Assembly (NCBI GenBank): GCA_002104905.1 | Contig: MCFE01000089.1 | Location: forward strand, 112,664 to 176,663 | From: Basidiobolus meristosporus CBS 931.73 | Lineage: Eukaryota; Basidiobolomycota; Basidiobolomycetes; Basidiobolales; Basidiobolaceae | DNA: 64,000 bases | Direction of reading: 5' to 3' | Shown: in pieces, positions 7,842 to 64,000 of the stretch | How the letters are laid out: each line of letters begins with the position of its first letter | How positions within the stretch are numbered: the first letter of the stretch is position 1 | Translations under genes and position numbers: made by a program | Notes under the pieces: generated by a model | Database searches by the model: none | The model's input: the letters and a program-made list of their open reading frames with translations, nothing else | What the model was told of the DNA's origin: nothing

Positions 7842-8757
7842 CCAAGAAGAATTACCAACAAGAAAACAGCTGTTTTTACAAGGGTTGGAAGTGCAGCCAG
7901 TTGAGCTACACTCCAGCAAGGTAGATGAGTTTGCAGAAAAAGGCAATTTGTCTACCTCAGCCTCCACATCCTCCATTGTTGACAGAGTGGAGATCCCACT
8001 GACAGACAAGGCTACAAGATCAAGAACTTAGGAGTCTAACACAATGCCTTCAATGGAATTTTGGAACATTAATAGGCACAGCAAGAGGTTGCAGCACTTC
8101 TTCATAAGCAGTGCTCAGGAAAATGCACTTAAATATTGCAAGGATTTATTGCAAAGTCTGGCAGATGAGGTGCTAGACCTTGCAGTGCTGGCTGAAGACT
8201 AGGGGATGTGGGAACCAATGAAAAAACAGTGGCATCAAGCCATTGGGTTCCTGCCAAAGCTGTGGAAGCAGAGAGCTACAGCAGAAATACTTATTAAGTG
8301 GTGGATTTTAATGGAGTTACTTGCTGAGTCAGGGGTTGGGCTTAATGTTAATTTAGGGTATAGGGACTTGTATAGGTCACTACAATTGGCAATTGAGGTA
8401 CAGCTGAAGTTTCAATGGAAATAAATCAATTTGTATGCATGAAAAGTGAGGGAAACAGTTGAGTCTGGTAGTAAGGAGTGTGAAAAAGAGGCAATAGCCA
8501 ATCAATGAACACAAATGTAAGAGGTGATAGAGTGTCTGGGATCAGAAAGTGAGCAAATTGGCAGGGAACCAATCATTAGCCACTGATACTGTGATGTGAT
8601 GAAAAATTCTGACCAAGTTTTTTGTGAGATCTGGGGTGCAATTATTTTCAACAGTCTCTGGACAGTGTCCTGACAGGATCAGTACCTCTTAGTCACTGGA
8701 CTTTAACTTTGTGACAGTCTTTTGACAGGAGCATTACAATAATTTTTCATAGGGCAT

Positions 8758-50825: not shown

Positions 50826-52361
50826 TTAATAGGAAAATCGAAAATCTAGGCGGTCATTCCCAACGTGGTGTGTGGTTAGAGCGTAGTGTTTTCTTTCCTC
50901 CTCAGTCATGGAGTTCCAAATCCTATCCCTCTTACGATCTAGATACACATAATGGTGCCGCTGGGCGAGAAAAAGAAGTATGGAGAAACTAGCGATACCA
51001 ATGTTGATCCAATTTCCTCTATGGAATCTCGGTTTGTCGTCATCTCTGTAAATTTGACTGCTGATAAGTCCATTGATGTTGACTGACATGATGTACATAG
51101 CTAATGCGATCGATCTTTTGCCCATCGGTGCAACATTTTCCGTGAGCCAGGCTGCATTGATCGGATGCCAGTACGGCCAACCGACAGTGAAGATCACCAC
51201 AGCATAGAGTGGCCATTTGCCAACAGAATCTGGTAAAAACTCCAACAGGAGCACTCCAAGCAGAAACCAGGTCATCCCAAACACCCCGTGCCACGCGCGA
51301 TCTTTCACCCGATCACTGTTGCGCGTCAGGGCAAGCATGAACAGGAGCTTGAGGAGATGCGCAGGAACTGTCAATAGGTTACTAGTGACAGTGTTGAATC
51401 CGAAGCCCTTGATCATCAGTGGCATATATGAGGTGACAGGAGCTGGGGCCATCAGGCCAAAGAAACCTATCAGAACATGGCCCCAAACCCGCGAATCCTT
51501 CAGCGCACTTGTTAGATCTCCCAGATTCGCACCTTTTCTTTGGCCATTTGCCTTACTAGGGTCATCCCGGATCAAGCGAGTAACGAGAATCTTGACCTGC
51601 CTATCATTAAACCAACCGTCCTTACCTCTTAGGAGCCCCTTAGTCTTGGAAGGTCCTGCTGGGAGATAAAAGAATGAAACTAGCGCCACTATCACCGTGC
51701 CTACACCATCGATTAGAAATAGCCATTGCCATCCTTTAAGACCGCACACACTGCGGAGTCTAAGAACACCAAAAGCAATGAGCCCAGACGAAGCATCGGC
51801 CAGAGCTAGAACGCCCCAGAACCAAGATAATCGGGTAGCCAGCTCATCCCTAGTGTAGTAGGTAGTCATATACAGGATAATGCCAGGTATGTAGCCGGCC
51901 TCAGTTAGGCCAAGAAAGAATCGCGAGAGATAAAAGGTTGTCCTGTCGTACATAAACGTCTGCGCCCAACTCACGGTGCCCCACAGAAACATCAGAAAAG
52001 GAATCCATCTCTCCGCACCAACCCGCCGAATGACCATATTCGAAGGGATTTCTAAACTGACAAATGACAGGACAAAAATGATTGTTCCAACATTCACCTC
52101 GTTAATGGTCATTCCAAGGTCCTCGGCGAAATTATCAGTCATTGCATTGGACAAATTGCCGCGGTCCAGTTGAAGGAAAAAAAACATCAGCCCAATCCAT
52201 GTCATCACACGAAGATCCACCTTACGGACAAGAGCTTTCTCTTCCTCTGCTGTCCATGTGATGCTGGGGTCACAGTTGTCAATGTGATCAAATTGCGCAT
52301 GCTCTACATACCGCGACTTCGGGGCACCTTCGAGTAGCGCCTGTTTCTTTTCAAAGACCAT
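50826..52361 (-). CDS. MFS anion:cation symporter (DAL5/TNA1 allantoate-permease family)
   Basis: Single exon, 511 residues, with about 12 membrane segments in two halves of six. The family start is clear: TAEEEKALVRKVDLRVMTWI, then FFFLQLDRGNLSNAMTDNFAEDL. Next come SLEIPSNMVIRRVGAERWIP, FFLGLTEAGYIPGIILYMTTYYTRDELATR (loop 4-5 signature) and GWQWLFLIDG. The central loop is hydrophilic (PAGPSKTKGLLRGKDGWFND). Relatives import organic anions such as allantoate, nicotinate, pantothenate or biotin with protons at the plasma membrane. The substrate cannot be told from sequence. The start MVFEKKQALLEG leaves a typical ~45-residue cytoplasmic tail. Confidence 0.9.
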   Translation of the reverse strand: MVFEKKQALLEGAPKSRYVEHAQFDHIDNCDPSITWTAEEEKALVRKVDLRVMTWIGLMFFFLQLDRGNLSNAMTDNFAEDLGMTINEVNVGTIIFVLSFVSLEIPSNMVIRRVGAERWIPFLMFLWGTVSWAQTFMYDRTTFYLSRFFLGLTEAGYIPGIILYMTTYYTRDELATRLSWFWGVLALADASSGLIAFGVLRLRSVCGLKGWQWLFLIDGVGTVIVALVSFFYLPAGPSKTKGLLRGKDGWFNDRQVKILVTRLIRDDPSKANGQRKGANLGDLTSALKDSRVWGHVLIGFFGLMAPAPVTSYMPLMIKGFGFNTVTSNLLTVPAHLLKLLFMLALTRNSDRVKDRAWHGVFGMTWFLLGVLLLEFLPDSVGKWPLYAVVIFTVGWPYWHPINAAWLTENVAPMGKRSIALAMYIMSVNINGLISSQIYRDDDKPRFHRGNWINIGIASFSILLFLAQRHHYVYLDRKRDRIWNSMTEEERKHYALTTHHVGNDRLDFRFSY

Positions 52362-53265
52362 CTGACAGCACTAGATAAGCTGGCTGGAAAAAGATATACC
52401 ACCTCCGAAGGATATCACCCTCTATTTAAATCCTACATTCAACATGTTTGAATCCCTGCTGTCTCAAACAGCTTGGATTCCATCATAATAGAACTATAGT
52501 GGCTGTCATTCGTACTCTTGGAGTGTGACACCCACATGACCTTGTCCGGATCAGTCCACACTTCACAGGTGTAATGCTTCTGCCTGCAAGCAAGTAGTCT
52601 CCACCATGGGAAGTTGTGGGATAGAGCAAAGTACGGAACTTCAAGAAACAATATACAGTGGCGGATGCTACATGGCGTGACTATCATCTGGTCCTCAAAA
52701 GGGTAACCAGCCATAGCACTTACCAGTCGGGATCTTCTCTCCAACCCGTCGCCATCTATTCGATCTCACAAGGTAGGTTTAGAATTAACCATATCGAGTC
52801 TCTGCCTTACGGCCACTAACAGGCGCCTATTAAAGCCAACCATCACGGAATCCACCCGATTCACCTCAACTGAGCGGGACAAAGCCTCCCTAAATGATGG
52901 CGTTGATATATGAGCAATGGATCACATCCAGGTTTAAATGGTGCAAACCAACTTGCGCGTCTTGTGCCATTATTTCATCATATGCGCTAAGAATTTCCTG
53001 ATGCCAATCCACACACGCAACTTGACTCAAAACCACTGTTGAATTTCGAAATATTTCCCAGAATGATGCAAACCGTTTAAGCCTACAGGGTCGTCATGAT
53101 CAGGGCTTAGCCATTCAACCACCCATACTGTTTGGATTTGGCTTTATCCCACTCCTTGTCACAAAAAACTCAAGATTTCTCCCGAACCAATCTTCCCTGA
53201 CAATATTCTCGCTGCTCACTAAGCTTATGCCAATATTTTTGATACAATGTCAAAGGATACGCTAA
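52362..53265. other. intergenic region, boundary of the subtelomeric repeat zone
   Basis: No recognisable gene; the only longer frame (52744-52439, minus) has no domain. The first 100 bases should hold the MFS promoter. Right of 53266 everything is transposon-derived. Confidence 0.45.
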
Positions 53266-54137
53266 GGGTTAGGGGGGAGACAGTCACCAACAGGTGAAAT
53301 CTTTATTTCAGTTGAAACAAAGAAGCCAGTGCTACTGTTGTATCTTTGATACAAGGGTGTGTAGCTGAGGGAAATCTATAGGTAAGTTAATAAGAAGTGA
53401 TGATAGTTCTTCAGTGCTCAAGATGCTGTTCATTGGGAAGGGGGGTAGCAAGAGGGGTAAGAACTATTAGTAAATAACATTGATAAAAGGAATATGATAA
53501 GGATTGATATTCATAATAAAGGGAGTGTGCTGCTTCAGATATTGCTGCTAAAGGTCTGTCAAGTACTTCAGGTAGGCCAGCCTGCATTTTTCCAACTGCA
53601 GAATATAATGAGCAAACTTCTTGACTTCAGGATCTCCAAGTATAGTTCTCCAGCAGGAGCCAGGTGTAGTGTGGTGTGTTCTCTTCCATGCCTTAATCAG
53701 TGGGTTGTTGCAGTGGTGAAGTCTGAGATATAATCTGGTTCTGAGGTAGAGAAGTCTGATCTTATAGGGCATAAACCCAAAAGCACCAAGAATAGCATGT
53801 CTGTAGGGGCATTCAGGCAAATGAGGCACCAAGGAGGTAATGCACCATACTGCAAATTTGTCAAGCTTAGTGCAGTCTCTAGTAGTAAGAGAGAGAAGTG
53901 GTAAGCCAAATTCCAGGACAGGGAAGACAAACTGCTTGAGTAGAAGGAGGCAGCTGGGAGCTGAAGTTGTAGGAGGAGTAACAGCCAGTAGCTTGTGGAG
54001 TGCCTGTCTTGCCAGGATAATTCTCTTCTTCAGGTGTGCTCCAGAGTCTAGTCCAGTAGGAAGGAAAGGAAAGCCAAGATATGTAGCAGAAACTTGAGCA
54101 AGTAGAGTGCAGTTCTCTAAGTTGATAGGACAGCCCT
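53266..54137 (-). mobile_element. LINE copy A, 3' part (telomere-tailed family)
   Basis: Collinear with 59503-60372 of the terminal LINE. The 3' end on the minus strand is the same GGGTTAGGGGGGAGACAG block (53266-53283). Frame 54180-53548 matches the end of the terminal copy's reverse transcriptase protein (YLGFPFLPTGLDSGAHLKKR, CPYRHAILGAFGFMPYKIRL) with scattered changes. It is interrupted on the right by a copia LTR at 54140. Confidence 0.85.
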
Positions 54138-54139
54138 GC

Positions 54140-54484
54140 TGTAAGAGTCTTGGAGATATTGGAAGTGATTGGGAGGACAAGTAGATTATGTGGTTTTCAC
54201 TTAATGATTTATTGAATGTAAAAGTAGTATTTATACTTTACATGGCCTTGGCATCAAAAACGTGTAGCATAGGTTAAGGAAAATCCTAAGAGCATGTGTG
54301 CAAAGTTTGGGGCTGTTTGGACAACTTTGAGAATTTTCATCTTCTGGGTACCTGGTATTTTGGTGAAAATATTCTAAGCAAATCCCAACAAGGAATTTGG
54401 CCAGTATTCTCCAGGATTTGAAGGTAATGATCCAAGTGACTAAGTTAGGTGAATGTTAAGGTGGAATTACAAATTTTTACAACA
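54140..54484 (-). mobile_element. Ty1/copia 3' LTR
   Basis: The LTR runs from TGTAAGAGTCTTGGAGATATT to TTTTTACAACA. It belongs to the same family as the LTRs at 14-17.5 kb and is followed by a purine-rich tract (on the minus strand GGGTGGGAGTG), the expected polypurine primer site, and then copia pol. Confidence 0.8.
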
Positions 54485-55576
54485 CTCCCACCCAGCTCAA
54501 TGTTCATACTGACTAGTCCTAATTTTGACTTAAGATATTCAAACTTGTCTCTAGCTAATGGTTTGGTAAATATGTCTGTAATCAGTTCATCTGTAGGACA
54601 GTAAACTAAGCTAGCTAGGTTATTCTCTGTAGCTTCACATATGAAATGATATCTAATATCTATGTACTTAGTTCTAGCATGAAAAGTTGGATTTCTACCT
54701 CATTGTATACATCATTGATTATCTTGAAATAAAGTAATAGGTGTTTTTTGACATTGGCCTAAATCTGTAAAAAGCTTTCTTAACCACACTGCATCTTTTG
54801 TGGCTTCACAGGCTGCCATGTACTCTGCCTCTGTGGTAGAAAGTGCTACAGTTGGTTGCTTTCTTGCTCCTTTACAGTAAAGAAAGATGTATCCTATGGT
54901 GGATCTTCTGTCCTCTAAGTTTTGTCCCCAATCAGCATCAGAGTATCCCACAAGATCCTGTTGTGAATCCTTATAAGTGTATCTTAAGCAGATATCAGCA
55001 GTTCCTTTAAGGTATCTAAAAATCTGCTTAACTGCTGCAATATGATCAGATCCATAGTTCTGGTTATGTTGGCTGACAACTCCCACTGAATATGAGTTAT
55101 CTGGACATGTTCCAAGGATGATATACATTAGACTGCCAGCCATAGATTGATCAGGAAAGTCAGGGCTTTCAGATGGCACCAAGTTCTCTTGATTTGGTTG
55201 AGTTCTGACCAAGTTAAGGTTTGTCTCTGTTGGAGTAGCTGCCAGTTTACAGTCTTCCATTTGGTACATCTTTGTAGATCTTGAATATACTGGGACTGGC
55301 TTAGAGTGATAGTCTGGGTACTTCTGTCTATAGAGAACTTAATCCCTAAATTGTAACTGAGCTCTCCTAGATCAGACATCTTGAACTCCTTAGATAGGCT
55401 GGACTTAGTCTCTCCCAATGTTTCTAGGTTGATGGTGGCTATAATAAGATCATCCACATATAGAGCTAATAGAACTGGATTTGCTCTATCTGGCTTATAA
55501 TATATACTATAGTCAGCATTACTCCTTTTGAAACTCAAAGATTCCAAATAACAATCTATCTTGCAATTCCAGGCTG
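54485..55576 (-). pseudogene. Ty1/copia reverse transcriptase and RNase H, 5'-truncated
   Basis: Minus-strand frames 55586-55128 and 55269-54712 encode the second half of copia RT (LALYVDDLIIA, the YVDD active site, then MSDLGELSYNLGIKFSIDR) and RNase H (YSDADWGQNLEDRRSTIGYI, LSTTEAEYMAACEATKDAVWL). A frameshift at about 55200-55260 separates them. Everything upstream of RT (gag, protease, integrase, 5' LTR) is missing. The left boundary is intact through the 3' LTR. Confidence 0.82.
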
Positions 55577-55766
55577 TTGTATCCAAGAGAAAAGTGTAAT
55601 AAAACTCTTGAATGAGTTAACTGAACCTAAGTGATAACTAAGTGCAGAATCTTAGAATTGTCAAGGGTGACAGAAATATTAGCAGAGAAGTTCTGGTCTA
55701 ATATTGGTTTTGTATATAGTTGAGTTGGGCTGTAAATGCAACAAAGTTGGTTTGCTATACAGGCTA
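55577..55766 (-). mobile_element. LTR fragment of a second family (also at 8758-9002)
   Basis: Reverse complement matches 8820-9000. Its outer end (TGTATCCAAGAG on plus) touches the copia RT sequence, and its other side touches the gypsy remnant, so it lies between two other elements. Confidence 0.5.
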
Positions 55767-55768
55767 TG

Positions 55769-56707
55769 TTATGAATAGACACAAGGCAGGAGAGTAGAGC
55801 TAGGCAAGGCAGGACCAGGAAAGGACTTCTTGTTGGGGCAGGACTTGGCAAAGTGACCTGGTTGGCCACAGTATAGACAGAGGTTGGCTTGTTGACGTCT
55901 GGACTTTTCACTCTTTGATAGTTTCTTGTATTTGGCACTATCAATCTGCATAGGATCTTCTGGAGTGACTTGGGGAGCAGGAGGGGCTGGGACTGCAACA
56001 GGAATGTGTCTTTGACGGTTCTTTTGCTTCTTCTGGAATAGTCTGTTATCACATCGGATTGCTTGGTGCATAGCTTCAACCAATGTATCTGGATCTGGGA
56101 GTGTGAGTAGCAGATCACAAACTTCATCATTGAGGCCATCTTGGAATTGGCTAATCAAGGCTGCTTGACCCCAGGAGCTGAGGTCACTGGAGAGTTGTCA
56201 GAATTCTGAGGCATAGACTGATACTGGTTTGTTCCCTTGCTTGAGGGTCTTGATCTTGTTGGCAGCAGTTCTGGCTTGGTCAAGGTTGCCAAATGTTAGC
56301 TCCATTTCAGTGAGAAAAGCTTGGTAGTCTCTGAGGAGGGGAGAGTTGGTCTCCACTAATGGGGAGAACCACTTGAGAGCTGTACCAGTAAGCAGGTTGG
56401 AGATGAAACCAACTTTGGACTGGTCAGTGGGGTACCAGTTTGGCTGGAGTGCAAGATTGTTCTTCACCATATTGATGAAGCCACGGAATTCATTCTGAGA
56501 GCCTTTGAACTTGGTAGCAGGAGAATACTTGGGTTCTTGGTAGACTGGGACATGGCTAGTTTGCTGGACACTTTGGTTCTGGAACTGAGCAAGAGTATTT
56601 CTGAGGTCTGCATGGTCTTGCTGCAGTTGGGTAAAGGCAGCCATGAGCTGGGCAAAGTTCAGCTCTAGGTTGGACATGGTAGCAGAGGAAGGTGGATGAA
56701 CTTGCAA
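55769..56707 (-). pseudogene. Ty3/gypsy gag with one in-frame stop
   Basis: A single frame from 56707 (or the later Met, MSNLELNFAQLMAAFTQLQQ) to 55769. It is interrupted once by TGA at 56198-56200, between YASEF and QLSSDLSSWGQAALISQFQD. The retrotransposon gag domain is clear (FINMVKNNLALQPNWYPTDQ, VGFISNLLTGTALKWF). A CCHC zinc knuckle, CLYCGQPGHFAKSC, follows near the end. The stop sits where relatives commonly have Arg, so a CGA to TGA change is likely. The product would coat element RNA in virus-like particles. Confidence 0.75.
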
Positions 56708-57498
56708 GGAATACTGGAATATACTAAACTAGGCTGTGGGTTTGTAAAGCCACTAGTATGTCAAGAATACAACTATTGAGCCACAATCCCCAACTTAAAT
56801 AAGTTAGCATCACTTCAGAAGGTACTGGTTTCAACGTCCTTTGATAGAGTATTGTACTAAAGCTTCTAATACTGTAACAACTGTAAACTCCACCAGCAGG
56901 GTAATAAAGTGAATGCAGCTTTGACCAATAGTTTTACAAAGATAAAGTATCTTTGCCTTTATAGGACAAGACTAGGGAAAGATGATGGGTGATACTTACG
57001 GTGAGTATTCCTTTTACAAGTTTTCTTCAAACTTTGGGCAGAAGGCAGGGATCCACAGGTAAGTCAGGACAGTCTAATAAAACTGTTATGAATAGACACA
57101 AGGCAGGAGGTAAAGCTAGGCATGGCAAGAAAGGACTTAGGTGTGGACCATCAAGGCAAGGCAGGATTCAAGGCAAGGCTGTTTATTCAAGACCTGTGTT
57201 TATCAGACTGAGGAATACTTAAGGGGGGATAGGACTATATATACTTTTTGGCTATACTGATGCCGAGAGATATTAGCTAATACTAATGGGGTTGTGGGGT
57301 GAGGCACAGCAATGGTGCTGGGGATAATGACATAGATGACACAACACTGAGACAGGATGGGGAAATGGATTGGGTCACCTGATCATGTGACTAAGTCATG
57401 TGACCTGGTATTTCCATATATGGTACTGGACTATGAAAAATACAATGGAAAGCTTCCATGGAATGTTCCATTGTGTAACAATGGTTTGGAATGGTCGG

Positions 57499-57531
57499 GA
57501 ACTTTCTGGAAGGTGGTAGAAGGTTCCAGAA
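57499..57531. promoter_or_regulatory. two heat-shock-element-like motifs in the gypsy LTR
   Basis: GAActTTCtgGAA at 57499-57511 and GAAggTTCcaGAA at 57519-57531 are both perfect three-unit nGAAn arrays, the binding pattern of heat shock factor. A related LTR at 6872-6884 has TTCcaGAAggTTC. Function in this fungus is inferred. Confidence 0.5.
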
Positions 57532-57602
57532 GGAATCTCTTAGAAATTGAGCTAGGAAGCTGAAACTTGGCATGAGTGTTCATGGTTGTCATGTGATCAT
57601 GA

Positions 57603-57995
57603 CAGCTGTTCTGTTGAAGGTAACTTCCTGGAAGAGGGCCTCATTGCCCTGTAGAGTCTTGACACTGTTCTTGTTATAGAGTTGGAAGATTGCAGAGGCA
57701 AACAACTCAAAATAGGGTCCCAGAGCTGAGTATGCAGAGTGTGGTGAATTACCTTGGAGTGGTGTCTGCCTGTCAGGAGGAGTTTTGCTGTTTTTGGGTT
57801 AGGGAAACTCAAGCAGCTTTGTTGCAGGGCTGATACAATAGATTCACATTTTCTTGAGGTAACAGCAACAGTCTTACATGGCAATGAGAGAGAGGTAGAG
57901 ACCAGAATCAGATGCTTCACAAAGAGCCAGGCATAGTTGAGATCATCTGGCAGAGAAAGTAGCAAACTGGCAAGCTTCAAGTAGTTCCCAAAGTT
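57603..57995 (-). mobile_element. LINE copy D, ORF2 middle fragment
   Basis: Collinear with 61245-61644 of the terminal LINE. Frame 57980-57597 runs without a break from the endonuclease C-terminal side (LASLLLSLPDDLNYAWLFVK) into the RT N-terminal linker (HTLHTQLWDPILSCLPLQSS). It therefore shows that the family's ORF2 is a single frame here. The left end is cut by the gypsy element. The right end joins TTAGGGTGTAGG at 57995. Confidence 0.8.
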
Positions 57996-58108: not shown

Positions 58109-58305
58109 TACTGCTCCCATACTCTTTGAATTCCCTTTGGATTACTTTTTTCTATTCTTGGTTCTGGTCCCTTAGGGTAGGGGAGGGAAAGTCACCAAGG
58201 TAGGTGAAATCTTTATTTGATTTCAGACAAGTCTAACTACAAATAAAGAAGCCAGCTGGGAATAGAAGATTCCCAAAGTAAACACTAAGTTGAATATGAA
58301 TAAAT

Positions 58306-59034
58306 CTAAGCTAAAGTTAAGGCAGTATCCCAGAGTACACTGGAGTTCAGGTTCATGGGGGAGTGAAGTAGATAAGCTTGAGAGATATAATAATCTTTTA
58401 AGAAGTGGGTAACAGCAGGTGAAGGGGAGTTTTTGATAAGTGAAGTGAATCTTGAGATCAGAGATTCCTCTAATGAGAAGGTCTTGTAAACTGGAGAATC
58501 AGGAAACTCTTTGAAGGCATGGTCAGTAGGTTCCCAGTAAAACTGGTCAGAGACATTTTGAGAGAATTGTTTAGCAATACTTTTGTCAAGTACTACCTCC
58601 AGAGTGTGATGGTTGATAAATCTCATGTTGACAATCTTGGATAAGTTGTAACCTTGTTGCTTGAGATACATCCTATGCTCAGATATAGGAATAAACTCCA
58701 CATTGGCAAAGTAGCAGACAGCCCAGTCAGTAGCAGGAGGCAAATCAGAAGTGGCAGGAAACTTTCTTTTGGTCTTGGGAGGAGCAGCAGGATGTCTTGA
58801 GGAAGCAGGAACAGACTTTTTGACAACTTCAGAGTAGGAAGAGTGAGCAGGAGCAGATGATTCTTGGGGAGTCTTGTTGGCAGGAAGAGTTGGCTCAGGG
58901 ACAATAGATTCTTGCAGATCAGAGAAGGCGGAAAAGAGTTTTTGAACTTGTTTCTTGAGTAGAGCATTTTCAGCTTCAACAAGTGCAAGCCTTTCCTCAA
59001 GGAAAGAAATCTGAAGGGAATGGAGTGAAGGCAT
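58306..59034 (-). CDS. LINE ORF1-like protein
   Basis: About 242 residues from MPSLHSLQISFLEERLALVE. The frame is open back to 59109, but those residues come from the 101-bp repeat. The N-terminal ~40 residues form a coiled coil (LEERLALVEAENALLKKQVQ). A Pro/Ser/Ala/Lys-rich linker follows, then a domain starting DLPPATDWAVCYFANVEFIP. That domain aligns in pattern with NLPPASTWTVVYLKQVPWTP of the terminal LINE's ORF1, with further similarity at LSKIVNMRFINHHTLEVVLD versus LSRIVNLAWRKGKILEVILD. It is probably an RNA-binding chaperone. The frame is intact. It ends in TAG, with no ORF2 behind it. Confidence 0.7.
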   Translation of the reverse strand: MPSLHSLQISFLEERLALVEAENALLKKQVQKLFSAFSDLQESIVPEPTLPANKTPQESSAPAHSSYSEVVKKSVPASSRHPAAPPKTKRKFPATSDLPPATDWAVCYFANVEFIPISEHRMYLKQQGYNLSKIVNMRFINHHTLEVVLDKSIAKQFSQNVSDQFYWEPTDHAFKEFPDSPVYKTFSLEESLISRFTSLIKNSPSPAVTHFLKDYYISQAYLLHSPMNLNSSVLWDTALTLA

Positions 59035-59076
59035 AAGAAATAAGAAGAAGAGGGTAAGATGGGGTGGGTGGGTGGG

Positions 59077-59503
59077 AAAATTAGCAGGGAGAAGAGAAGG
59101 AAGGAGCAAAAATTCCAGAAGTCAGAATTTATAGATGGATGGACAAGGGTAGATGGATGGATTATTCCTGGGTTAGGAAAATTAGCAGGGAGAAGAGAAG
59201 GAAGGAGCAAAAATTCCAGAAGTCAGAATTTATAGATGGATGGACAAGGGTAGATGGATGGATTATTCCTGGGTTAGGAAAATTAGCAGGGAGAAGAGAA
59301 GGAAGGAGCAAAAATTCCAGAAGTCAGAATTTATAGATGGATGGACAAGGGTAGATGGATGGATTATTCCTGGGTTAGGAAAATTAGCAGGGAGAAGAGA
59401 AGGAAGGAGCAAAAATTCCAGAAGTCAGAATTTATAGATGGATGGACAAGGGTAGATGGATGGATTATTCCTGGGTTAGGAAAATTAGCAGGGAGAAGAG
59501 AAG
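59077..59503. repeat. 101-bp tandem repeat, about 4.2 identical copies
   Basis: Units begin AAAATTAGCAGGGAGAAGAG at 59077, 59178, 59279, 59380 and (partial) 59481. The full copies appear identical. Each unit contains CCTGGGTTAGGAAAA, with eight bases of telomere-like GGGTTAGG. The small plus-strand frames inside it (65 codons, repeated every 101 bases) are artefacts of the repeat. Confidence 0.93.
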
Positions 59504-59568
59504 GGTTAGGGGGGAGACAGTCACCAACAGGTGAAATCTTTATTTCAGTTGAAACAAAGAAGCCAGCG

Positions 59569-62337
59569 CTACTGTTGTAGCTTTGATACAAGAGTGTGTA
59601 GCTGAGGGGAATTTGTAGGTAAGTTAATAAGAAGTGATGATAGTTCTTCAGTGCTCAAGACACTGTTCAGTGGGAAGGGGGGTAGCAAGAGAGGTAAGAA
59701 TGACTTGTGAACAACATTAATGAGGGGAATGTGATAAGGATTGATATTCATCATAAAGGGAGTGTGCTGCTGCAGATATTGCTGCCAAAGGTCTGTCAAG
59801 TACTTCAGGTAGGCCAGCTTGGGTTTTTCTGACTGCAGAATAAATTCTGCAAACTTCTTGACTTCAGGATCTCCAAGTATAGTTCTCCAGCAGGAGCCAG
59901 GTGTTGTGTGGTGTGTTCTCTTCCAGGCCTTAATCAGTGGGTTGTTGCAGTGGTGAAGTCTGAGATATAATCTGGTTCTAAGGTAGAGAAGTCTGATCTT
60001 ATAGGGCATAAACCCAAAAGCACCAAGAATAGCATGTCTGTAGGGGCATTCAGGCAAATGAGGCACCAAGGAGGTAATGCACCATACTGCAAACTTGTCA
60101 AGCTTAGTGCAGTCTCTAGAAGTAAGAGAGAGAAGTGGTAAGCCAAATTCCAGTACAGGGAAGACAAACTGCTTGAGTAGATGAAGGCAGCTGGGAGCTG
60201 AAGTTGTAGGAGGAGTAACAGCCAGTAGCTTGTGGAGTGCCTGTCTTGCCAGGATAATTCTCTTCTTCAGGTGTGCTCCAGAGTCTAGTCCAGTAGGAAG
60301 GAAAGGAAAGCCAAGATATGTAGCAGAAACCTGAGCAGGTAGAGTGGAGTTCTCTAAGGTGATGGGAGAGCCCAAAGGTACTGTCTTTGCAATGGAAAGC
60401 TGGAGATTATTCTTCTGCAGATACTGGTGGATGGTCTGGGAGTCTTGTTGCACATTGGAGGAGGATATTCTGATGTCATCAGCAAAGAGAGTAACCAGGC
60501 AGTCAGCTGAGAGTCTTGGGAAATCATTCAGGAAGATGGCAAACAGTATAGGACCAAGCACAGAGCCTTGAACCACTCCATTAGGAACTGAGAACACAGC
60601 TGATTGCTCACTTGGGTGCAGAATTCTTGCTTGTGGATCCAGAAACAGGGACCTGACAAGGAGGGTGAGAGAGGTACTGGAGAAGCATTGCAACTTGGAC
60701 CAAAGCAGATTTCTGTCAACTGAATCAAAGGCCTTAGTAATATCAAACAGAACTGAGGGATACTTGCACTGGAGAGAGTGATCTTGGCTAAGTATGACTG
60801 CATATTCCAAGGAGAGGCCAGGAACAAAGCCAAACTGTGCAGGATGAAACTTGAGGGAGTCAGAGTAGAGCTCCTGAGCAAGCAGAAGCTCAAACACCTT
60901 TCTGCAGGTGGGCAGCAGAGATATTGGCCTGTAGGAGCTAGGATCCAGGTGCTTTCCTTTACCCTTGTACAGTGGCAGAACATTTGCAAAGGACCATTCC
61001 TCAGGAGTAGAAAGCTGGGCTGAGCATTGCTGAAACAGTGGAAGCAGAAGTGCAGACATGGCCTTGGTACTAGTCTTCAGAAGCTCATAGGAGATTGTGT
61101 CCACACCTGGAGCAGTAGAGTTGGGAAGCCTCTTGAGCACATTATGGATTCTCCTTTGATCAAGTGCAAGTGGGATGGGCAGAGTCTTGAAGTCAGGATG
61201 AAAGCCAGGAGTTGAGTACTGCTTTGTAGAGAAGAAGATGTTAGCCAGCTGTTCTGTTGAAGGTAACTTCCTGGAAGAGGGCCTCATTGCCCTGTAGAGT
61301 CTTGATACTGTTCTTGTTATAGAGTTGGAAGATTGCAGAGGCAAGGAACTCATAATATGATCCCAGAGCTGAGTATGCAGAGTGTGGTGAATTGTCCTTG
61401 GAGTGGTGTATTGCTGTCAGGAGGAGTTTCTCTGTTTTTGGGTTAGGGAAACTCAGGTAGCTTTGTTGCAGGGCTGAAACAATGGATTCCCATTTTCTTG
61501 AGGTAACAGCAGTAGTCTTGCATGGCAGTGAGAGGGAGGCAGACACCAGAATCAGATGCTTCACAAAGAGCCAGGCATAGTTGAGATCATCTGGCAGAGA
61601 AAGTAGCAAACTGGCAAGCTTCAAGTAGTTCCCAAAGTCTTTCTTCTGATTCTTGGTAGCTTTGTGGGTGAGCACAGTAAGTTTTGGCAGCTTCTTCTTC
61701 ACAACTGGTTGCATAGAAAGGGACCAGGCTGGGTGGTCAGAGGCTCTCAAGGATCCTAGCTCAGCTCCAGAGAATTGCTTAACTTCATCCACAGAGTAGA
61801 GGGCAGCAGCAGAAGGGCAGATCCAGTCAACACATCTTTTCTCAGATTGAGCACCTAGTGCTAGCAGATGGCTTTCTCTCAGGAAGTTCAGTAGGAATGT
61901 AGACCTTGGCTTCATTCTTGCAGTCAGAGTAGTCTTGTTCTCAGGATGGGGAATGTTGAGATCTCCAAGCAAGATAATAGGTGTTGATATAGATTGCTGG
62001 TATTGCTGAACTTTCTGGCATATAACTTGCACTTCCTGAAGGGCAAGACTTGGAGGCAGATAGCAGAGCACCAGACTGATAGTTGGCAACTGGAGAGCAG
62101 CACAGTAAGGGGAGTAAAGAGGAACACAGAGCTGAGGAGTATTATGGTAGAAGAGATGAAGCAGATAGAGGAGGTATTCTTTGTTCTAGGAGTAGAAAAG
62201 CAATATAGATTAGTCAAAAGTATAGAGGGTAGCTGAACATCAATCAAACACAGGAGGGAAAATCTTGAAAGAAGTCTCTCTAGAGTTGGTCTTGATGGCT
62301 GTATGCTGTTGCAGTTAAGCAACAGAACTTCAGGTAG
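59569..62337 (-). pseudogene. LINE ORF2: APE endonuclease plus reverse transcriptase, two frameshifts
   Basis: ORF2 sequence begins directly after the ORF1 stop (LPEVLLLNCNSIQPSRPTLE). The endonuclease continues in another frame after a shift near 62200 and shows PIILLGDLNIPHP and RASDHPAW. The catalytic Glu expected early appears replaced (LIDVQLPS). A second shift at about 61395 is an extra base compared with copy D. The reverse transcriptase frame (61353-59569) is intact: SYRPISLLP, HPAQFGFVPG, LFDITKAFDSVDRN, NGVVQGSVLGPILF, LFADDIRIS (FADD active site) and a C-terminal region with CPYRHAILGAFGFMPYK. No RNase H domain is evident. Confidence 0.85.
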
Positions 62338-63393
62338 TCAGGCAGAGGTTGTAGCTTCTTCAGAGGCAGCATTGACAATGTGACCTGCAGAGTCCCAGAG
62401 CTCTTCAAATGGTGCATCACTTAAGTCAGCAAGGAGGGAAATGGCATGGTTCTTGAGGAAGTATGCCACATCATAGGAGGGGGCTTGTCTCTTGATGGCA
62501 GCAAAGAAAGACAGAATGGCAACATGGGCTGGAGGCTTGTTGAACAGTAGAGAGTCAGAGGATTCAGATTCTTCAGGCACTATCTTGAAGTCAGTTTTCA
62601 GCCAGTTAAGGTTCTTCTCCACAAAGGCAACAAATGGGTCAGCAATGTGTTGGTCTAGGATAACCTCCAGAATCTTCCCTTTTCTCCAGGCCAGGTTGAC
62701 AATTCTTGAGAGCTGAATATTGCATGCCTTGAGTGCTTTCCTGATGTTGGAAATGGGAGTCCAGGGAACTTGCTTCAAGTACACCACAGTCCAGGTAGAA
62801 GCTGGTGGTAGGTTTGCTGGGGGCTTGTAAGTCCTTCTGTGTGGCAATGGAGCTGCAGTAGTCAGATTGGAGTCCACATTCTCAGTAGAGGGTTTTCTTG
62901 ATGTGTCTTGCTGAATGGTACTGGAGCTGGATGTGTTGATAATTCTTGCTAGAACCTTGCCTGCATAAGTCTGAGGTATAGCTGAGGTGACTGTAGAGGT
63001 GGTGGCAGCTGGTGCAGGTGGAGAGGCAGAAACTGAAGCAGGAACTGAGGTCACCTGGGAGAAGGCAGTAGAAGCAGGTTTTCTGGGAGGAACAGAGTTC
63101 ACTATCCAGTTGTTCTGTAAAACACTGGAGTAGCTTTTCTGTGGAACAGGATCTTGCTCTTGAACAGGAACAGAAGCAGCAGGCTGGGGCTGAGCAGTAG
63201 TGGTAAGGCAGTGGCACTCCAAGGAAGCTTTTTGCAAGGCATCTCTGGCAGTTTTCAGGGCAGTATTGGCTTCATTCTTGAGCTTCTTGCATTGGGCATC
63301 CAGTCTCTTGTTTTCAATAGTCAGGGCAGTATTGGCAGCCTCTAAATCAGCAATTCTCTTCTCAATTGCAAGGAATCTCTTGAAGAAATGCAT
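62338..63393 (-). CDS. LINE ORF1 protein (coiled coil, RNA-binding-like domain)
   Basis: About 351 residues from ATG at 63393-63391 (MHFFKRFLAIEKRIADLEAA). This start lies just before the coiled coil (LEAANTALTIENKRLDAQCK), as in the related protein at 58306-59034. The frame is open back to 63582, but that part is a Leu/Pro-rich shadow of ORF0. A Ser/Ala/Pro-rich linker leads to a domain beginning NLPPASTWTVVYLKQVPWTP, shared with the neighbouring element. The gene overlaps the end of ORF0 by 32 bases in another frame. It ends in TGA followed by CTA, with ORF2 continuing in the same frame. Expected role: RNA-binding chaperone of the retrotransposon particle. Confidence 0.75.
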   Translation of the reverse strand: MHFFKRFLAIEKRIADLEAANTALTIENKRLDAQCKKLKNEANTALKTARDALQKASLECHCLTTTAQPQPAASVPVQEQDPVPQKSYSSVLQNNWIVNSVPPRKPASTAFSQVTSVPASVSASPPAPAATTSTVTSAIPQTYAGKVLARIINTSSSSTIQQDTSRKPSTENVDSNLTTAAPLPHRRTYKPPANLPPASTWTVVYLKQVPWTPISNIRKALKACNIQLSRIVNLAWRKGKILEVILDQHIADPFVAFVEKNLNWLKTDFKIVPEESESSDSLLFNKPPAHVAILSFFAAIKRQAPSYDVAYFLKNHAISLLADLSDAPFEELWDSAGHIVNAASEEATTSA

Positions 63394-63847
63394 CAGTAGA
63401 AGTGCTGGCATCTGGGAGAGCAGTGGCAGGAATAGAGTCCATTGACAGTGGGCTTCTTGGAGGCAAGGAAAGTGGACTGGCAGATTCAGGCACAAAAGGA
63501 GATATCCTGGCAGGAGGAGAAGGAGTATCCAAGGCAGTAACAGAGGCAATTCTTGTTGGTGAAGCAGCAGCAGGGGAGGCAAGCCTGTTCAGAAACTGGG
63601 CAGGAGAGAGTGCTTGAGGAGAGGGAGTCTTCAGCTTGCCAAGCATGTCTTCCATCAGAGTGATACCAATATTCCTGGTGCATTTGCAGAGAAAAGTAAG
63701 CTTCCTGAGTCTGCCAGCTCTTCCATTCCTTCTGATAGTTCCTTTGTTTCCACAGTTGGGGCAAGAAATCTTCTTGATAGACTTGTCAAAGCAATCAAGA
63801 ACCTTCCTTTCGGGTGTAGTGGGCTCCTGTTGAGGTTTTGGTGGCAT
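63362..63847 (-). CDS. LINE ORF0, zinc-ribbon protein
   Basis: 161 residues, starting 34 bases from the telomere repeats (MPPKPQQEPTTPERKVLDCF). Residues 29-56 form a Cys cluster, CPNCGNKGTIRRNGRAGR...FLCKC, resembling the small zinc ribbons (CPxCgs...NGk...ykCk) found at the start of some transposases. The rest is a Ser/Pro/Ala-rich tail. The stop codon (63364-63362) overlaps the ORF1 start region. It may be a nucleic-acid- or telomere-binding accessory protein, or the N-terminal half of ORF1 if a frameshift joins the two. The neighbouring ORF1-only element lacks it. Confidence 0.65.
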   Translation of the reverse strand: MPPKPQQEPTTPERKVLDCFDKSIKKISCPNCGNKGTIRRNGRAGRLRKLTFLCKCTRNIGITLMEDMLGKLKTPSPQALSPAQFLNRLASPAAASPTRIASVTALDTPSPPARISPFVPESASPLSLPPRSPLSMDSIPATALPDASTSTDAFLQEIPCN

Positions 63848-63881
63848 ATCCAGAGTTTCAGCTTCAATTCAATTTTGAGAT

Positions 63882-64000
63882 TTAGGGTTAGGGTTAGGGT
63901 TAGTTAGGGTTAGGGTTAGGGTTAGGGTTAGGGTTAGGGTTAGGGTTAGGGTTAGGGTTAGGGTTAGGGTTAGGGTTAGGGTTAGGGTTAGGGTTAGGGT
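63882..64000. repeat. telomeric TTAGGG repeat array, chromosome end
   Basis: About twenty TTAGGG units run to the last base of the window, with the G-rich strand on plus, so the chromosome terminus is to the right. One unit near 63900 is shortened (TTAGTTAGGG). The array starts directly behind the 5' end of the LINE. Confidence 0.97.

Follow-up and report, generated by a model that had tools for sequence, protein, structure and literature searches.

LINE A, an APE-endonuclease non-LTR (long terminal repeat) retrotransposon, or long interspersed nuclear element (LINE), lies directly beneath the telomere repeats at the end of a contig of the fungus Basidiobolus meristosporus CBS 931.73. It belongs to a multi-family terminal retroelement system that is larger than the one described in an earlier note on this DNA (the original prediction). 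The window analysed here is the whole 64,000-nucleotide stretch that forms the final 64 kb of this contig (C1190), in an assembly of 89.0 Mb and 1311 contigs. Sequential terminal target-primed reverse transcription at chromosome ends, followed by telomerase capping, is quite probably the best explanation of how the system is built. The genome seems to combine fruit-fly-style and telomerase-style telomeres.

LINE A and its telomere junction

The LINE A copy of the window, its internal features and the adjoining telomere are as follows:

59503..63881, minus strand: LINE A copy, 5′-truncated within its 5′ untranslated region (UTR), 3′ end proximal
63882..64000, plus strand: TTAGGG telomere array (Tandem Repeats Finder), running to the C1190 contig end, which is the right end of the window
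62338..63847, minus strand: open reading frame 1 (ORF1) of LINE A, 502 residues in 18 of 30 fetched 5′ loci, frameshifted here (161 residues), terminating in UGA-CUA
59569..62337, minus strand: ORF2 region, APE-type endonuclease then reverse transcriptase (RT), in the frame of ORF1 after the UGA, frameshifted here
60304..60942, minus strand: RT domain (Pfam RVT_1, E 1.5e-25) with an FADD motif
61856..62077, minus strand: part of the endonuclease domain (Exo_endo_phos_2, E 2.1e-4, under the curated cut-off)
59521..59560, minus strand: 3′ module of two stem-loops (59537-59560 and 59521-59534), common to six families, folding z -4.1
59503..59520, minus strand: telomere-like 3′ tail, in the sense orientation CTGTCTCCCCCCTAACCC

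On the plus strand, the 3′ end of LINE A reads GGGTTAGGGGGGAGACAG, the telomere-like ending that the original prediction had reported, and the identical block that it had placed in an older copy at 53266 is present there. The 3′ UTR of the window copy is 66 nt long. The prediction had also set the 5′ end of the element directly against TTAGGG; the minus-strand element at 59503-63881 does adjoin the array at 63882-64000, but position 63881 is not its natural 5′ end. All of the 30 fetched 5′ loci except that of the window (L009) extend upstream beyond the window copy. Copies that reach the 5′ UTR carry about 190 nt or more of it, with ~100-bp monomers and an internal CCCTAACCCTAA.

The junction with TTAGGG in the window copy, at ATCTCAAAA, is a truncation point inside the 5′ UTR. 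The telomere is fused at or near the known UTR start in L011, L014, L022 and L027, elsewhere in the UTR in L024 and L031, and inside the ORFs in L025, L026, L056 and L069.

Location and orientation of copies

A 35-base pattern from the LINE A 3′ end was searched assembly-wide with up to two mismatches, the reversed pattern serving as control. It matched at 866 places (787 forward, 79 reverse), against none for the control, and its recurrence is not chance. About the first 100 places were listed, so that low contig numbers are sampled, and the location test was confined to listed places in contigs of at least 100 kb, shorter contigs being left out. The 54 testable 3′ ends come from 32 such contigs. 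None is more than 18,238 bp from a contig end, the median distance is 4.4 kb, and 53 point 5′-outward. In these testable places, the pattern is not that of a genome whose full-length copies lie mostly in non-telomeric DNA with ordinary target duplications. The remaining 3′ end, 58 bp long, is inverted within an otherwise normal array ending in TTAGGG (L154, C355:154000-157610).

Similarly, among 100 listed heads of an element resembling a short interspersed nuclear element (SINE), all 25 in the 18 contigs whose length was fetched (one of them 88 kb) point outward; the test covered places in such contigs only. All but one of the 53 exact ORF1 starts are minus-strand. The exception, C746:88609, is the sole place known to be interior, most other contigs with an ORF1 start being of unfetched length.

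Three tandem TTAGGG units occur at 8002 forward and 103 reverse places, which indicates that contigs are oriented non-randomly, mostly with the telomere at the right; orientation was therefore tested relative to contig ends. Mirrored LINE A copies are found at the left ends of C80 and C291, while C424 opens with CCCTAA repeats, next to which lies a SINE head, and bears mirrored SINEs near its right end. C424 (312,558 bp) and C291 (160,813 bp) have telomeric elements at both ends in mirrored orientation and may be nearly complete, very small chromosomes.

Repeat collapse at contig ends could in principle generate false arrays and a false orientation. The fragmentation of the assembly into 1311 contigs, the strand asymmetry of TTAGGG and the 12 of 19 fetched right ends that are not TTAGGG would all agree with such an artefact. 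It is nevertheless extremely unlikely, given that C424 and C291 bear mirrored elements at both ends, that joints differ among contigs and that orientation is consistent relative to the contig end.

Joints between elements

Joints were defined as distinct 3′ ends in fetched loci with at least 150 nt of proximal flank (n = 101). Loci L009-L068 were chosen by LINE A matches, and 3′-end detection required the hairpin, so that other kinds of 3′ end would escape. L003-L008 (which overlap L002), duplicate junction strings and 3′ ends with too little flank were left out of the counts. The proximal flank is a telomeric element in 87 of the 101 joints (SINE-like 33, LINE A 25, LINE A 5′ UTR 17, element-B region 12), and all 87 are in the same, sense orientation. 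Nested insertion was rejected, as none of the 101 joints has an antisense flank.

LINE A flanks are entered at many different internal points, and the neighbours are therefore 5′-truncated. Assembly-wide, 53 exact ORF1 starts compare with 642 exact 3′ ends, so that ~8% reach ORF1, contig ends having cut some others. Most LINE A copies are 5′-truncated with a defined 3′ end. At the end of C2, for example, LINE A pieces of 118, 124, 1003 and 2754 bp follow one another and are succeeded by TTAGGG.

The joints are phased and hold little telomeric sequence. Exactly C6 (CTCCC + CCCTAA) is found in 38 of 52 LINE A joints, and TAA continues in 47 of the 52. Of 642 exact 26-base 3′ matches across the assembly, 448 have TTAGGG 0-3 nt ahead of GGAGACAG. 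Complete uninterrupted TAACCC-like units after the C-run number 0, 1, 2, 3, 4 and 7 in 27, 59, 9, 4, 1 and 1 joints, respectively, so that at most one unit is kept in 86 of 101, whereas terminal TTAGGG arrays measure 97-242 nt in the nine contig ends measured. Compared with random insertion inside long arrays, the little TTAGGG at joints favours end addition.

This comparison bears on a mechanism of the SART/TRAS type, in which an APE endonuclease would cut within a TTAGGG array already in place, the repeats distal to the element, on its 5′ side, being leftover target. LINE A encodes an APE-type endonuclease that retains most catalytic residues, its ORF2 profile matches the TRAS1 endonuclease in the PDB (E 3.3e-11), and the preferred 3′ joint register (GGG/TTAGGG) is as such cutting could leave it. 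Random cuts would, however, produce a broad spread of remnant lengths rather than the short remnants counted above, and elements are fused to each other's truncated 5′ ends. Cutting of this type is accordingly judged quite unlikely.

LINE RTs jump between templates, and one RT that copied several RNAs in succession would give a head-to-tail array in a single event. The geometry of the arrays is compatible with such jumping, and many joints contain no more than a tail that could be encoded in the RNA. Conversely, 2-7 full TAACCC units in 15 of the 101 joints suggest that telomerase acted between additions, and members of one array can differ in age, the inner LINE A copy of the window being 93.6-94.6% identical to the terminal one. 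Template jumping is thus an unlikely source of the arrays; the alternatives are not mutually exclusive, and jumping and end addition could operate side by side.

Arrays might also be enlarged when interstitial TTAGGG tracts recombine or undergo break-induced replication with one another, and TTAGGG-like motifs are present at most joints. Growth by recombination is proposed, in the part of the literature consulted, for MoTeR arrays in telomerase-deleted Pyricularia mutants (PMC8381367). Copying of this kind would spread shared joints; only 2 of 102 distinct joints (loci from 55 contigs) recur in more than one contig, both joining a SINE end to the 5′ UTR start of a full-length LINE A, a junction able to recur independently. 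Recombination is on these grounds improbable. Microhomology at 17 A-to-A joints (mean 1.4 nt versus 0.7 in a rough control) is weak and was not used.

Sampling from the telomere side

Telomeres were also sampled with an array-start pattern that uses no LINE sequence and misses arrays preceded by G. It matched at 108 forward and 3 reverse places, of which 100 were listed. Contigs up to C302 hold 17 forward array starts, and an exact LINE A 3′ end is present in 10 of those contigs. About 700 nt were read on the inner side of 20 arrays, comprising the 7 of those 17 without an exact LINE A 3′ end and 13 taken at intervals from the remaining list.

The telomere sits on LINE A, element B, the SINE-like element or a distant ORF1 relative in 15 of the 20, always in the sense orientation. 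An element lies beneath the array in 12 of the 13 interval picks and in 3 of the 7 picked for lacking LINE A. The LINE A positions found under sampled telomeres (401, 1065, 2251 and 3138) are all different. At L161 (C249:11980-12711), the telomere is fused to sequence that resembles, by eye, the 5′ part of a tRNA gene (GGCTAGCTCAATCGGTAGAGC), and this junction is possibly a healed break.

Terminal addition and telomerase capping

The orientation, the phased TTAGGG/GGGAG joints, the minimal TTAGGG remnants, the frequent truncation and the direct TTAGGG caps, taken together, fit terminal target-primed reverse transcription followed by telomerase capping. Copies end in the common 3′ module and a C-run with CCCTAA. 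It is proposed that the ORF2 protein binds the 3′ module in RNA, and that the RNA tail (...CUCCC-CCCUAA) pairs with a nearly repeat-free chromosome 3′ end in TTAGGG-OH. RT would then extend the chromosome end, so that the complementary DNA becomes the new G-strand with the 3′ end of the element inward. Most copies are 5′-truncated with the 5′ side outward, as would result if copying stopped early or the end later eroded. Telomerase would next add TTAGGG directly to the truncated end, an order of events consistent with the observed junctions and the TERT domain in this genome. Loss of the cap would allow the next element to be joined to the old truncated end, and repetition would build a head-to-tail array with about one TTAGGG unit per joint. 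Gag-only and SINE-like elements, which have the 3′ module in common with autonomous members, may borrow the RT of one of these.

Two pieces, spanning profile positions 48-133 of 133, represent the TERT RNA-binding domain above its cut-off; an internal stop in one of them could be due to an intron.

Several observations weigh against terminal addition as a complete account. The endonuclease domain is retained, which pure end-priming would not need, and 194 of the 642 exact 3′ ends have no TTAGGG within 3 nt, so that priming on a full repeat does not account for every end. Flanks in 14 of the 101 joints match nothing in the small element library, and joints without LINE A are under-sampled because most loci were chosen by LINE A matches. 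Furthermore, 5 of the 20 sampled telomeres are without any searched element. With regard to location, 1 of the 54 LINE A 3′ ends is inverted (the 58-bp piece in C355), and an interior fragment with ~250 bp of the LINE A 5′ end and no 3′ end is found at L155 (C746:87600-93600). Repeats are, moreover, points at which assemblies break and contigs end. The 19 fetched right ends of contigs bearing LINE A comprise 7 in TTAGGG, 9 within telomeric elements and 3 of neither kind; C1, C2 and C1190 also end in TTAGGG, which makes 10 of 22 right ends.

A wider proposal is that of a hybrid telomere, in which a consortium of autonomous LINEs of the APE type, gag-only elements and a SINE-like RNA extends eroded ends in bulk and telomerase adds no more than a thin TTAGGG cap. 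Such a telomere would be a living intermediate between telomerase telomeres and the retrotransposon-built ones of Drosophila, with targeting by the ORF1 protein or the common CCCUAA tail. This proposal is tentative, and is considered possible rather than probable.

Coding capacity of LINE A

ORF1 is a single 502-residue frame in 18 of the 30 fetched 5′ loci, and a frameshift stops it at 161 residues in the window copy. The original prediction had suggested that an ORF0-ORF1-ORF2 layout may be new. This does not stand, because ORF0 is no separate gene but the first part of the 502-residue ORF1, cut off by the frameshift of the window copy.

ORF2 is open for 922 codons in the L071 copy, with an APE/exonuclease III-like endonuclease N-terminal to the RT. 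The whole endonuclease domain of this copy models as an APE1 fold. The invariant residues G125, D126, N128, D171, D201 and H202 are retained, and the usual catalytic Glu is Asp here. Placement, junctions and endonuclease bear out the prediction of an APE-type non-LTR family that targets telomeres and usually has TTAGGG at its 3′ junction.

ORF1 and ORF2 of LINE A lie in one frame, split by UGA-CUA (window 62335-62340; 35 matched places). The first Met of ORF2 is residue 142, and ORF2 therefore seems to need stop readthrough or a non-AUG start. As judged from the sequence, ORF2 is probably made by UGA readthrough.

In a protein search with 120 of 339 matches listed, records of Basidiobolus meristosporus CBS 931.73 are among the best matches and no other fungus is named. 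The match to P0001 has 97% identity over 41% of the query, and that to P0003 has 64% over 69%. In P0001, a predicted protein in a public record, three copies of the LINE A C-terminus follow one another, a head-to-tail array annotated as one gene.

Six families with one 3′ module

Six 3′ ends have a module in common, consisting of TGGCTTCTTT...AAATAAAGATTTCACC-loop-GGTGA, a C-run and, usually, CTAA. The module folds as two predicted stem-loops (z -4.1 in A and -3.7 in B), and the inner pair of the longer stem, read by eye, varies by family, being C-G in A and G-C in B. Two of the six families have ORF2, three are ORF1-only (one known from a single copy) and one is SINE-like.

Going upstream from the module, the first protein match is to ORF2 in 51 of 53 cases for A and in 4 of 4 for B2, a second LINE that is related to P0007. 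ORF1 is the nearest upstream match in B (9 of 9), D (3 of 3) and E (1 of 2), and ends 61-91 nt before the tail pattern.

The SINE-like element is ~530 bp long, and 28 of 34 of its tails have no LINE protein match within 500 nt; the six remaining matches, 86-414 nt away, are read as neighbours of truncated copies. Its 3′ module is that of an autonomous LINE and it lacks coding capacity, the features by which a SINE is recognised. The head is preceded by CCTAA at 164 places. Words in the element resemble, by eye, the consensus A and B boxes of RNA polymerase III promoters. The head gave no Rfam match up to E 5 at two loci and no ARAGORN tRNA at three loci. A proven tRNA origin of the head was consequently rejected, and the element is called SINE-like only.

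ORF1 relatives of 33-60% identity adjoin telomeres at L159, L160, L165 and L167, and ORF2 relatives from metagenomes (P0002, P0004-P0007) have 50-79% identity. These distant relatives suggest more LINE families of this kind.

Neighbouring features in the window

The features proximal to the terminal LINE A copy include a second telomeric family member and an older LINE A copy in two pieces:

58178..59504, minus strand: element B, 1.33 kb, ORF1 only, with a 5′ UTR of 101-bp tandem monomers, the same 3′ module and a short CCCTA tail
59075..59504, minus strand: 101-bp monomers, 4.3 copies, forming the 5′ UTR of element B (Tandem Repeats Finder)
57603..57994, minus strand: older LINE A copy, 5′ piece, 93.6% identity
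53266..54136, minus strand: older LINE A copy, 3′ piece, 94.6% identity, carrying the 3′ block of the terminal copy

Element B and an LTR element separate the two LINE A copies of the window. The LTR element (54137-57602) splits the older copy, of which ~870 bp are missing there, and is presumably copia-like, judging by motifs in its ORFs. A 514-residue open frame at 50826-52370, ~11.5 kb from the telomere array, matches an MFS transporter (Pfam MFS_1).

Comparison with known telomeric elements

The telomeric elements of Drosophila are often 5′-truncated. HeT-A, TART and TAHRE (HTT) are described as forming terminal head-to-tail arrays in one orientation, with the 3′ end centromere-ward (PMC10088271, PMC5537684). 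HeT-A, as presented in PMC5537684, is without enzymes and relies on RT-bearing partners; the same account describes Drosophila as having no telomerase and priming on poly-A. The arrays found here are likewise terminal and head-to-tail with the 5′ side outward, and gag-only members stand beside RT-bearing ones as HeT-A does beside TART. Unlike in Drosophila, telomerase is not replaced, as seen from the TERT domain, the TTAGGG caps and the CCCTAA joints.

The Giardia elements GilM, GilT and GilD are reported to form head-to-tail arrays between the subtelomere and telomeric repeats, with 5′ truncations (PMC5537684). GilM and GilT are assigned to the CRE clade, and long 3′ UTRs are described for the Gil elements (PMC10088271, PMC5537684). 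LINE A is like them in head-to-tail arrangement and 5′ truncation, and differs in its APE endonuclease and in the 66-nt 3′ UTR of the window copy.

SART and TRAS are described as having an APE-type endonuclease and a telomere target in the presence of telomerase (PMC5537684), all of which holds for LINE A. In the accounts consulted, they insert inside telomeric repeats, and only full-length telomeric copies are reported (PMC5537684, PMC4700185). LINE A, in contrast, forms end-to-end joints and is mostly truncated, and repeats on both sides of an insertion are not its pattern, at most one proximal unit being present in 86 of 101 joints. R1 and TRAS1 endonucleases are among the fold or sequence matches, which does not decide placement of the RT in the R1 clade.

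The fungal telomeric elements MoTeR, FoTeR and Cnl1 are assigned to a clade with a C-terminal restriction-like endonuclease and a CCHC motif, and FoTeR is described with a TAACCC-type 3′ junction and upstream variable-number tandem repeats (PMC12857005). LINE A is also fungal and telomeric, and shares with FoTeR the type of 3′ junction and the upstream repeats. By motif search only, no CX1-3CX6-8HX3-4C or RHD..E..R/KPD motif was found in ORF2 of LINE A or in P0004-P0007; unlike in these elements, an N-terminal APE endonuclease is present instead. LINE A is filed under neither the SART/TRAS nor the MoTeR clade, because a tested feature of each fails.

Two further systems show partial likeness. 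Athena Penelope-like elements are described as 5′-truncated and as bearing a short run of telomeric sequence at the 3′ end, and endonuclease-independent L1 as priming on uncapped telomere ends in DNA-PKcs-deficient cells (PMC5537684, PMC4700185). LINE A resembles the former in its telomeric 3′ stretch and 5′ truncation, and would resemble the latter in priming on chromosome ends; Athena differs in being a Penelope-like element without an endonuclease domain. Overall, LINE A is closest in its mode of action to the HTT or Gil arrays, in a telomerase-bearing genome.

A title and abstract search of the open-access literature, to which the search was confined, found no paper on telomeric LINEs in Basidiobolus. 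The described cases that were found come mainly from insects, Giardia, rotifers, a green alga and a few fungi with restriction-like endonuclease elements. To the question of how retrotransposons and telomerase can share or exchange the maintenance of chromosome ends, B. meristosporus adds a telomerase-bearing, early-diverging fungus in which APE-type LINEs have apparently been added to the termini hundreds of times. Its elements divide the work much as HeT-A and TART do, joined by a SINE-like passenger, and one 3′ module with a tail complementary to the telomere is common to all members. The distinct joints form a record on which the order and mechanism of end addition can be tested.

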